Shown here: positions 41,765 through 45,130 of the stretch, one piece after another | How the letters are laid out: every line of letters starts with the position of its first letter | Numbering within the stretch: position 1 is the first letter of the stretch | Source: Anaerolineae bacterium | GTDB lineage: Bacteria; Chloroflexota; Anaerolineae; Aggregatilineales; Phototrophicaceae | Direction: 5' to 3' | Length of the DNA stretch: 64,000 nt | Assembly (NCBI GenBank): GCA_022822305.1 | Contig: JAJEBY010000016.1 | Coordinates: 434,001 to 498,000, forward strand | Notes under the pieces: model-generated | Database searches by the model: none | What the model saw: the letters and a program-made list of their open reading frames with translations, nothing else | What the model was told of the DNA's origin: nothing | Position numbers and translations under genes: made by a program

Positions 41765-42748
41765 ATGAAGGTAAAAGTCGACGAATTGCGCCGGGTGGCG
41801 CAACGGGCGATCCAACAGCAAGGCTTCGGCGTATCCGATGCGGAGGTCATGCTCGAGATCATCATGTACGCGCAGCTGCGCGGCAACAACCAGAATGTCA
41901 TCAAGCTGCTGGGAGCGGGCATGCCCGCCCATCCCGATGCCGGCGAAATCAAGCTAGTCAAAGAGACGAAACTTTCGGCGTTGATTGATGGCGGCTGGAA
42001 CCAGGGCATGGTGGTGATGTCGCGGGCGACTGAGATCGCGATTGACAAAGCCAAGGCACACGGATTCGGCATCGTCGGGACGCGGCGCACCAATTCGCCC
42101 ACGGGCGCGATCGGCTATTACGCTCGCCGGATCGCCTATGAAGGCATGTTGGGTTTTGTCTTCTCCGGGTCGATGGAATTGATGGCGATGCACGGTTCAT
42201 ACGAAGCCTTCCTGGGCACAAATCCGCTGGCGATTGGGATTCCTGCCGACGACAAACCGATCGTCTTCGATATGGCGACGGCCGCGATCGCCTATTACGG
42301 CATTGTATTGGCGGATGCTGAAGGCGAATCGATTCCGCCAGGCGTCGCATACGATAGCGAAGGCCGGTTGACGACCGATCCCGCCAAAGCGCTGTCCGGG
42401 GCCATCAAGGCTTTCGGCGGCTACAAAGGCGCGGCGTTGGCATTCATCGTAGAGATTCTGGCGCGGCCTCTGGTGGGCGCGACGCGCGCGGACGATGGCA
42501 AGAAGCTGGATTGGGGCAACGTCATATTTGCGATTGACCCCGAGCTGCTGGCCGATGATTTGGCGAGTTTTCGCGCTGGCGTCAGCGACCTGATTACGCG
42601 GGTCAAGGCCACCAAGAAATTGCCGGGCGTCGATGAGATTCTGGCGCCGGGTGAACGGGGCGACCGCTTCTATGAGCGAGTCATGGCTGACGGCGAAATC
42701 GAGTTGGACGATGATGTCTGGCGTGAATTGCAGTCAATTGCAAGCTGA
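41765..42748 (+). CDS. Ldh (malate/L-lactate dehydrogenase, YlbC-type) family oxidoreductase, active-site variant
   Basis: 327 residues. The NAD(P)-binding fold of the Ldh_2 family is clear: LGTNPLAIGIPADD, FDMATAAIA, SIPPGVAYDSEGRLTTDP and FGGYKGAALAFIVEILARPLVGA. Two catalytic landmarks are altered. The usual RGHDSHG block reads RGNNQN (39-44). The SNHFG segment holding the catalytic His reads TNSPTG, with Pro112 where His is expected. The enzyme may use another acid/base, another substrate class, or be non-catalytic. It is the middle gene of the selenoprotein trio. Confidence 0.82.
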   Translation: MKVKVDELRRVAQRAIQQQGFGVSDAEVMLEIIMYAQLRGNNQNVIKLLGAGMPAHPDAGEIKLVKETKLSALIDGGWNQGMVVMSRATEIAIDKAKAHGFGIVGTRRTNSPTGAIGYYARRIAYEGMLGFVFSGSMELMAMHGSYEAFLGTNPLAIGIPADDKPIVFDMATAAIAYYGIVLADAEGESIPPGVAYDSEGRLTTDPAKALSGAIKAFGGYKGAALAFIVEILARPLVGATRADDGKKLDWGNVIFAIDPELLADDLASFRAGVSDLITRVKATKKLPGVDEILAPGERGDRFYERVMADGEIELDDDVWRELQSIAS

Positions 42749-42795
42749 CGCCTGGTAAATGAGGGACACGACTGAGTTTTGGATAAGGCCAGCAA

Positions 42796-43545
42796 ATGAG
42801 CGACAAGAGCCTTTTGGAACGTTATAACTACGACGAGTTTGTCCCGGACAAGTTCATGCCCTGGATGCGCTTTGCCGAGAGTCCGGAGCTGGGTGTGGCG
42901 GCGCCGGATTTCCCGCTGTGGCAGTTGGACGATGGCGCCGAGACGTCATTGAAGGCGTGGTGGTCAAAGCATCAGTTTTTGGTGGTGGAGTTCGGCAGCT
43001 TCACCTGACCGTATTGTGGGATGGCGGGCCCATCCATGAATGAAGTGGCGCGCAAATACGCGGAGCACAATGTCGCGTCGATCTTCTTGTATACCAATGA
43101 AGCGCACCCGGCCGAGCGCTTTCCCCATCTGACATCCATGGAACAGAAGTTCGAGCATGCCGCGGCGCTGCGCGACGATCTGGGAGTAACGCGGCCGATA
43201 TTGCTTGATGCGCTGGACGGCGCCTGTCACCGCGCCTATGGCAGCATGCCCAATATGACCTGGATTTTCAATCGCGCCGGACATGCCATATACAAATCCG
43301 ACTGGACCGATGCCAACAGCGTCGATAATGCGCTGGGCTACACCATCGATGTTGCCAAGCGGCGGCGCGCTCGCGAGACGCTGGCGCCGTTCAACGTGCA
43401 GCGGATCGATTATCGCGATGCCGATCGGATGGCGTTTTTCAATGGGCTGAAGCGAAACGGCCGGCAGGCGGTGGATGATTTTATCGCCGCGTTTGGTCCG
43501 CCGCCGGATGGATTCGACTCGGACTCAGACGACGATGCCGATTGA
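42796..43545 (+). CDS. Iodothyronine-deiodinase-like thioredoxin-fold selenoprotein (in-frame TGA = Sec71)
   Basis: 249 residues if the TGA at 43006-43008 is read as selenocysteine. The halves are in the same frame and form one domain. Around the TGA the protein reads VVEFGSFT-U-PYCGMAGP, matching the deiodinase active site FGSCTUP and also a UxxC redox pair (U71, C74). Downstream FLYTNEAHPAERF matches the deiodinase YIEEAHPSD block (E102, H104). A later ILLDALDGACHRAYGSMPN matches the family's thioredoxin-fold C-terminal half. AAGG lies 7 nt before the ATG. A SECIS-like hairpin follows. Its last 21 nt overlap the convergent gene. sel genes are not in the window. Alternatives are a stop mutation or two short ORFs, both unlikely. 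Confidence 0.88.
43019..43035 (+). promoter_or_regulatory. Candidate bacterial SECIS element
   Basis: GGATGG and CCATCC form a 6-bp stem around the loop CGGGC. There are 16 nt between the TGA and the loop, and G is the second loop base. Both agree with published bacterial SECIS rules (UGA-to-loop distance about 16-37 nt, a G in the first two loop positions). The element is also protein-coding. Confidence 0.7.
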
Positions 43546-45102
43546 CGGAATCATCCGCTCGTAGATGACGCCCGCCCGTCCGCGCCGATCGGATGGTCTG
43601 TTCGCCAAGCCGCCGTCCAAGAAGAGGTGAGACGAGCCTTCGCCGCTGAGATTGAGGGCGTCGCGGGCGCCTTGCTCCAATAGAAACTCGGATATTTCAT
43701 CCAAGGTTGCGCCGGCGCTGTCGTCTGGCGTGCTGGCCGCGGGATCGCAGCCGTCGACCGAAACCAGAAGCAGATTGCCATCGGCTCTGATGCCCAACGC
43801 CGTGCGGGCTTTGCGTTGCTCGGACGCGCTCAGACTCATATTGACCGGCGTGATGCCGACGACGTGCTGCCCATCGAGCATTCTGCTGGCCCAGAATTCT
43901 TCACGTTCGGGCGCCTGTTCCAGGAGTGGTTGCCCATCTTGCAGTAGAATGGGACCGGCTTGAATGCCGGAGGCAATTGACCACTCGTCGTCGGCAAACT
44001 CGTATTCGACCCAGGCGTCGTTGACGATTTTGTCTTGCGCGTCCGTTGGAAGAGCGCTTTCGGCGATGGACAGGATGAAGCCATTTTGTGGAATGTGCAA
44101 ACCGCCGCCGCGCTTCCAACTGACGATCTGCCGATTGACAATGGTGTATTCGGTGCAAGCTGGCGACGTGGGCGTGCGGTCAAGCGGGCGATCCCGATCA
44201 GCGAGATGGCCGGCGCGCGTGTAAATGGAGATTGGCTGCGGCAGACGCGGATTGAGGTGAAACCGGTAGTCTCCCGCATCGTCCGGACGCAGGGCAAGTT
44301 CCCCGGGCAGGACGAGACTGATATCCGCCATGCTCATGATGCGCGCATGCCAGCGTTCGCCGTCAAACAGCAGGCAGCCGCGGCGATAAATTGGCGGGCG
44401 CAGAATAGTGCCCTCGGATACCATCAAGCCGATGGCATCGCCATAGCCGGAATGAGAGCTTACCAGGTCATCATGCTCGTGCAGGAAGTGCGAGGTATTG
44501 AAGACGGCGGATCGCTCGTGATTTTGTATGAAGCGCCGGATAAAATCGCAGCGCCCGATGCGGACGAAATTGCGCCGGATATCGAAGTCTTGGAAGATTC
44601 GCGGCGCGTAGGTGCCTCGCTCGATATTGGGATACAGGTCTAGTTGAATCGATTCTTCCAGCCAGCGCGTCATCGTATCCGCGCGGACTTGCCAGGCGTC
44701 GTTGCCCTCCGGAATCTCGCAGCGCCAATCGTAAGTGTCGCTGATGAATTCGTGAAGTTGCAGCCAGCCATTGGTCAAGAGCTGGCGCAGGACGCAGGTG
44801 ATAAAGGAATTGGCGCTGATTATGGTTTCGCCGTCAATAGTGTAATCAAGCCCGGGAAAGGTGCTCGCGGCGCGGCGATCGGTCTGCATGGCGGTCCAGG
44901 TCATGATGTGGGGAGCCTTCTCGCCACGGGCCCGGGCGCGAGCGTAGTGCATGCGCGCAATATCCTGCTGGCGGATATAGCTGCTCATCGGATGCAGGTC
45001 TTCGAATCGTAGTTTTTCCGGCGGAATCTCGACCAGGTGATAGGTCGACCAACTGCCGTCTTGGTGTTCTACGCGCTGATTCTGATATCGCATTTTAGCC
45101 AT
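43525..45102 (-). CDS. Phosphodiester glycosidase (NAGPA-like) family protein with large N-terminal region
   Basis: About 525 residues. The C-terminal ~100 residues match the phosphodiester glycosidase (NAGPA/DUF2233) domain: RTALGIRADGNLLLVSVDG, DEISEFLLEQGARDALNLSGEGSSHLFLDG, and a terminal IPSIGIVV. The N-terminal ~300 residues are not a family I recognise; no signal peptide is visible. Starts are ambiguous: ATG 45102, ATG 45093, or a TTG at 45129. The 3' end overlaps the selenoprotein gene by 21 nt on the opposite strand. The small membrane protein gene is immediately upstream. Confidence 0.72.
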   Translation of the reverse strand: MAKMRYQNQRVEHQDGSWSTYHLVEIPPEKLRFEDLHPMSSYIRQQDIARMHYARARARGEKAPHIMTWTAMQTDRRAASTFPGLDYTIDGETIISANSFITCVLRQLLTNGWLQLHEFISDTYDWRCEIPEGNDAWQVRADTMTRWLEESIQLDLYPNIERGTYAPRIFQDFDIRRNFVRIGRCDFIRRFIQNHERSAVFNTSHFLHEHDDLVSSHSGYGDAIGLMVSEGTILRPPIYRRGCLLFDGERWHARIMSMADISLVLPGELALRPDDAGDYRFHLNPRLPQPISIYTRAGHLADRDRPLDRTPTSPACTEYTIVNRQIVSWKRGGGLHIPQNGFILSIAESALPTDAQDKIVNDAWVEYEFADDEWSIASGIQAGPILLQDGQPLLEQAPEREEFWASRMLDGQHVVGITPVNMSLSASEQRKARTALGIRADGNLLLVSVDGCDPAASTPDDSAGATLDEISEFLLEQGARDALNLSGEGSSHLFLDGGLANRPSDRRGRAGVIYERMIPSIGIVV

Positions 45103-45130
45103 CCGAACCAGAATATGAATGTCGCACAAT

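Follow-up and report, generated by a model that had tools for sequence, protein, structure and literature searches.

Selenoproteins related to the animal deiodinases and equipped with a bacterial SECIS element were reported in 2005 as a Sargasso Sea family, for which the authors already suggested a redox role unconnected with the metabolism of thyroid hormone (PMC1088965), and UxxC is tabulated as the motif of the bacterial deiodinase-like family (PMC9312934, PMC13188914). In human DIO1, the residues S123, T125, Y153 and E156 constitute a proposed proton relay, the T125A variant is inactive, and Cys124, two residues before the selenocysteine (U-2), makes a selenenyl sulfide that is reduced by glutathione (PMC9141512). 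Among the papers searched, none reported a measured activity for bacterial deiodinase-like proteins.

The window analysed here, a stretch of 64,000 nucleotides from the genome of an Anaerolineae bacterium (Chloroflexota; 3.67 Mb, 94% complete), encodes a protein of this kind on its forward strand (Table 1). An earlier note on this DNA had described two open reading frames in one frame, parted only by the TGA at 43006-43008 and giving 249 residues when joined, and had stated that the family is known in some bacteria; the coordinates and description are correct, and the latter statement agrees with the 2005 publication. The frame contains this single internal TGA, the terminal stop of the gene is likewise TGA, and a weak AAGG motif (42785-42788) lies upstream of the ATG. 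The readthrough product includes LVVEFGSFT-U71-PYC74 followed by NEAHP (E102, H104), with a spacing of 31 residues from U71 to E102, one more than in DIO3 in the alignment of the two. The S, T, U, Y and E residues and EAHP are invariant, in line with the recognition of FGSFT-U-PYC plus EAHP as a deiodinase-type active site, and the pattern as a whole exceeds by far what coincidence would produce. Routine annotation, taking the TGA as a stop, would be expected to cut the gene into two. A helical C-terminal extension (residues ~198-235, window 43387-43500; PFxVERLDYR...GLxRNGPKAVxEF) is also conserved, and falls outside the region matched by the solved deiodinases.

Table 1. Positions in the window of the deiodinase-like selenoprotein gene, its key elements and its neighbours.
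Feature	Position	Strand	Remarks
Deiodinase-like selenoprotein gene	42796..43545	+	ATG to TGA, 249 aa; TGA at codon 71 predicted to encode Sec
In-frame TGA, predicted selenocysteine 71	43006..43008	+	TGA in 60/60 non-redundant homologues
Cys74 codon, second residue of the UxxC pair	43015..43017	+	Invariant in 46/46
Predicted bacterial SECIS apical hairpin, GGATGG-CGGGC-CCATCC	43019..43035	+	Stem 43019-43024 with 43030-43035, loop 43025-43029; covariation, third-position conservation, tree changes
EAHP block (E102-P105), deiodinase active-site signature	43099..43110	+	Invariant in 46/46; aligns with EAHP of DIO3 and DIO2
Upstream neighbour, Ldh_2 malate/L-lactate dehydrogenase	41765..42748	+	Adjacency confined to close relatives (8 loci)
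Convergent NAGPA (phosphodiester glycosidase) gene	43525-45129	-	Shares 21 bases with the 3' end of the selenoprotein gene

The evidence for decoding of codon 71 is comparative, and on this evidence the TGA is a selenocysteine codon, as the earlier note had proposed. A search across GTDB species recovered 70 loci of the family, and every one of the 60 non-redundant homologues taken into the codon analysis carries TGA at site 71. Five loci (L079, L087, L088, L091 and L096), being fragmentary, frameshifted or changed close to the motif, were left out of this count, although L079 and L087 also have TGA at the Sec site, and no other stops or frameshifts were seen at this site in the intact loci. 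The coding sequence ahead of the TGA and that behind it both evolve under purifying selection, with omega values of about 0.03-0.15 and 0.08-0.15, respectively, in close-relative pairs, in some of which synonymous sites are saturated. A sequencing error, against which the earlier note had advised checking, is excluded because the TGA is conserved across many independently sequenced genomes. The same note had held that close homologues with sense codons other than Cys or Sec at this site would speak against the reading; none occurs in the clade of the window protein, which is uniformly Sec, and Ser, Gly or Asp are restricted to distant paralogues on other branches (L115-L117, L119). The locus could still be viewed as a pseudogene, a sequencing error or two separate ORFs, given that the frame taken alone does hold a stop and that this genome terminates genes with TGA, including this very gene, but the unbroken TGA conservation, the purifying selection after the TGA, the covariation described below and the complete Sec machinery of the genome leave this explanation with a negligible probability.

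A six-pair hairpin starting 11 nt after the TGA was recovered with RNAalifold from 64 distinct downstream sequences. Among these sequences, 96.1% of the alignment cells in the stem are paired, versus 89.4% in shuffles and 32-52% in slid controls, and in 14 cells both pairing partners have changed, versus 2.4 expected, a number reached in none of 500 shuffles. The lowest third-position entropy among 77 comparable codons is found at codons 77, 75, 79 and 80, all of which belong to the stem, and we know of no protein-level reason for low third-position variability at these codons. The pair that joins the first base of codon 76 to that of codon 80 is A-U (Met76/Ser80) in 48 of the 60 homologues and C-G or U-G (Leu76 with a codon 80 starting in G) in 11, with a single exception (CA). 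Six changes are needed on each side for these two codons on a tree built without their columns, in which many branches have weak support. A strict test of independent pairs, restricted to the starred branches, left only one pair and thus had no power. The paired switches are consistent with a SECIS element, rather than a stand-alone proof of one. When folded alone, the hairpin of the window is no more stable than its shuffles (z = +0.88), so that the case for it rests on comparison; codon-shuffle tests on single hairpins were mostly not significant, and the divergent members L021-L023 have no hairpin in that register.

The earlier note had proposed searching for selA, selB, selD and tRNA-Sec, and all four are present in the same genome, with SelA detected at an E-value of 7.8e-134, SelB at 345.9 bits (cut-off 242.25), SelD at 375.5 bits (cut-off 125) and a tRNA-Sec with anticodon tca. 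The selD gene (L104, G000:C16:679652-680587) contains an in-frame TGA of its own, and the SelD of this genome is probably itself a selenoprotein. Full-length homologues of the deiodinase-like gene occur in 12 of the 98 genomes of the same taxonomic family (that of the window included), all 12 with the TGA. A selA gene accompanies the strong homologues in 12/12 of these genomes versus 75/98 overall (p of about 0.03 by a simple draw, the genomes being related), which lends weak support to Sec decoding. Within the genus, the gene occurs in 8 of 34 genomes and selA in all 34, and the selenoprotein gene is hence patchy although the Sec trait is retained. The genomes with homologues are labelled Chloroflexi, Anaerolineae and similar, and the lineage of the window is apparently sponge-associated, to judge from the isolate codes that its closest relatives bear.

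The window protein is a true relative of the deiodinases. It exceeds the Pfam cut-offs of Redoxin (34.7 bits), AhpC-TSA (31.6 bits) and T4_deiodinase (PF00837; 29.5 bits, cut-off 27), and among the 46 family members T4_deiodinase is the most matched model (45/46 at E<=0.001, best E-value 1.8e-13), so that the search of the joined protein against PF00837 advised in the earlier note came out in favour of the assignment. With a profile of the family, DIO3 (6.5e-10) and DIO2 (2.5e-7) were the best matches in the PDB, the next lying at 1e-4. Likewise, an AlphaFold model of the window protein (pLDDT 94.9) matched DIO2 with a Z-score of 18.6 (158 residues, 1.9 A) and DIO3 with one of 17.9 (162 residues, 3.3 A), followed by ResA-like proteins at 15.1 and below. 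Ser68, Thr70, Sec71, Cys74, Tyr99, Glu102, Ala103, His104 and Pro105 are invariant in 46/46 members, and S68, T70, Y99 and E102 correspond to S123, T125, Y153 and E156 of DIO1. Leaving the Sec site aside, the sole invariant Cys is Cys74, at U+3, while position 69 (U-2) is Phe in 42 of the 46 members and never Cys. H111 is present in 41/46, and the proposed outer-relay His (H174 of DIO1) is not clearly conserved. The suggestion that U71 and C74 form a redox pair that is absent from animal deiodinases is supported, but the pair is not new, being the published motif of the family.

When 400 genomes of the phylum were surveyed for the wider superfamily, the family was seen to grade into further Sec branches with UPYC (L108-L113) and USEC (L092-L095) motifs. 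The second side of the tree comprises UPPF (L114), UPIT, UPLA and UPAA (L120-L122, L024), one Cys form (L118) and the Ser, Gly and Asp forms, the last of which retain the E-x-H-P block with no redox residue at the site of Sec or Cys. The proteins of the UPIT/UPLA/UPAA Sec branch have no Cys at U+3 and extend past the thioredoxin-fold part. In the Cys form (FGAYT-C-PIF), a perfect 6-bp hairpin, ATCGCG-TACC-CGCGAT, occurs near the SECIS position (codon-shuffle p 0.044) and is possibly a fossil SECIS, or else a chance occurrence. L114 (positions 1462-2121; G359:C26), from another family of Chloroflexota, has an animal-type FGSVT-U(TGA)-PPFVAR and EAHPNE with no UxxC Cys, as well as a hairpin of its own, TGGCGAGGGTCTCGCCA, downstream of the TGA. 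It retrieved DIO3 at 8.4e-16 in a single-sequence search and groups closest to animal DIO2 and DIO3 (91/92 support, on long branches).

Clustering of the ORFs within 8-9 kb of the family loci revealed no conserved operon partner. The only neighbour clusters to stand out were antisense shadows of the selenoprotein gene itself and synteny among close relatives. The Ldh_2 gene is not taken as part of the selenoprotein system because its adjacency is limited to close relatives, and since no neighbour is kept beyond these, the genome context is silent on the substrate.

The bacterial protein is most likely a thioredoxin-linked selenol reductase. UGA 71 would be decoded as Sec by SelB and tRNA-Sec, aided by the hairpin just downstream, and in the folded enzyme Sec71 would serve as the nucleophile, with Ser68, Thr70, Tyr99 and Glu102 as counterparts of the proposed DIO proton relay and His104 in the same EAHP block. 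Sec71 may then attack the electrophilic atom of a small substrate, this atom being either a (hydro)peroxide-type oxygen or a halogen borne by an organic ring. The resulting oxidised form of the selenium would be resolved by Cys74 to a Sec71-Cys74 selenenyl sulfide, to be reduced in turn by thioredoxin and thioredoxin reductase. The steps are drawn from homology with DIO1 and DIO3. The first of them, attack of Sec on an electrophile, is strongly indicated, and Cys74 is plausibly the resolving Cys. This assignment of resolution to Cys74 and of regeneration to thioredoxin is suggested by the Phe at U-2, the sole invariant Cys at U+3, the thioredoxin reductase found in the genome and the lack, in this 94%-complete genome, of a hit to PF02955, the ATP-grasp model for glutathione synthetase, which stands for a single gene. 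For the sequence of steps as a whole, from Sec decoding to thioredoxin regeneration, a probability of roughly 0.6 is estimated.

Within this scheme, a general electrophile or peroxide reductase is judged more likely than a dedicated dehalogenase. A gene that stands alone and recurs in many of the phylum's lineages is more in keeping with a general reductase than with an enzyme devoted to one pathway. A true reductive dehalogenase, in which Sec71 would take the halogen off a halogenated phenol or aromatic compound, for instance the brominated tyrosine derivatives of sponges, as animal deiodinases do with iodothyronines, would account for the strict invariance of S, T, U, Y, E and H, all of them residues of the deiodinase site, for DIO3 and DIO2 as the closest solved relatives, and for the seemingly sponge-derived isolate codes of the genomes of close relatives. 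Many homologues, however, come from metagenome-assembled genomes with titles that suggest groundwater, mine or other non-sponge sources, so that the conserved role is not sponge-specific, and no dehalogenation gene adjoins the selenoprotein gene. The EAHP block is moreover no proof of halogen chemistry by itself, since the distant paralogues with Ser, Gly or Asp for Sec keep it, and this function is considered rather unlikely. A broader version sees in the Chloroflexota a reservoir, among bacteria, of the deiodinase family, with the UxxC branch as real reductive dehalogenases in which a thioredoxin-served Cys at U+3 replaces the glutathione-served Cys of DIO1 and DIO3, and with the rarer bacterial UPPF branch (L114) nearer to animal deiodinases than any other bacterial branch known; taken together, this is quite improbable.

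A thiol-disulfide oxidoreductase of the ResA/thioredoxin type, with Sec in place of the first Cys of CxxC, is suggested by the UxxC motif itself, by the Redoxin and AhpC-TSA scores slightly above that of PF00837 for the window protein, and by the ResA-like structures that come next in the fold list. Deiodinases nevertheless outrank ResA-like proteins in both profile and structure searches, the EAHP block and the T-U pair are both characteristic of deiodinases, and direct reading of the sequence shows neither an evident signal peptide nor an evident membrane anchor, which makes such an enzyme unlikely. The Chloroflexota clade is compact and has Sec throughout, and it combines an intact set of deiodinase catalytic residues with a defined SECIS and just one candidate for the resolving Cys, so that dehalogenase, peroxidase and disulfide reductase can be told apart in it by direct test.

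Among the known systems, the peroxiredoxin/Redoxin/AhpC-TSA proteins have the fold in common with the window protein, which matches the Redoxin and AhpC-TSA models, but its residues 64-71 (VEFGSFTU) depart from the peroxiredoxin PxxxT/SxxC signature in having Val rather than Pro at U-7, and peroxiredoxins rank below deiodinases in sequence and structure searches with the family. The NCBIfam model of the deiodinase family protein (NF038285, 347 positions) is matched over the catalytic domain by 46/46 members, the window protein scoring 57 bits, below the cut-off of 250. Animal DIO1-3 resemble the window protein in the thioredoxin fold, the S-x-T-U-P site, the relay Tyr and Glu and an EAHP block at nearly the same spacing. 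DIO1 and DIO3, however, have a proximal Cys at U-2, where the window protein has Phe69 and DIO2, also without this Cys, has Ala, and at U+3 the Cys of the window protein is replaced by Phe in the animal enzymes. The N-terminal membrane anchor of the animal deiodinases has no apparent hydrophobic counterpart on reading the N-terminus of the window protein, which differs further from DIO1-3 in its C-terminal helical extension (~198-235) and in the bacterial SECIS predicted inside its gene. Compared by description, the published bacterial family and the window protein are alike in PF00837 kinship, Sec insertion via a bacterial SECIS and UxxC, and while the former includes Cys homologues, the Chloroflexota clade considered here is Sec only. 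The gene thus belongs to the known bacterial deiodinase-like UxxC selenoprotein family rather than to a new kind, and what is added here is the survey of the lineage and the proposed resolving Cys.
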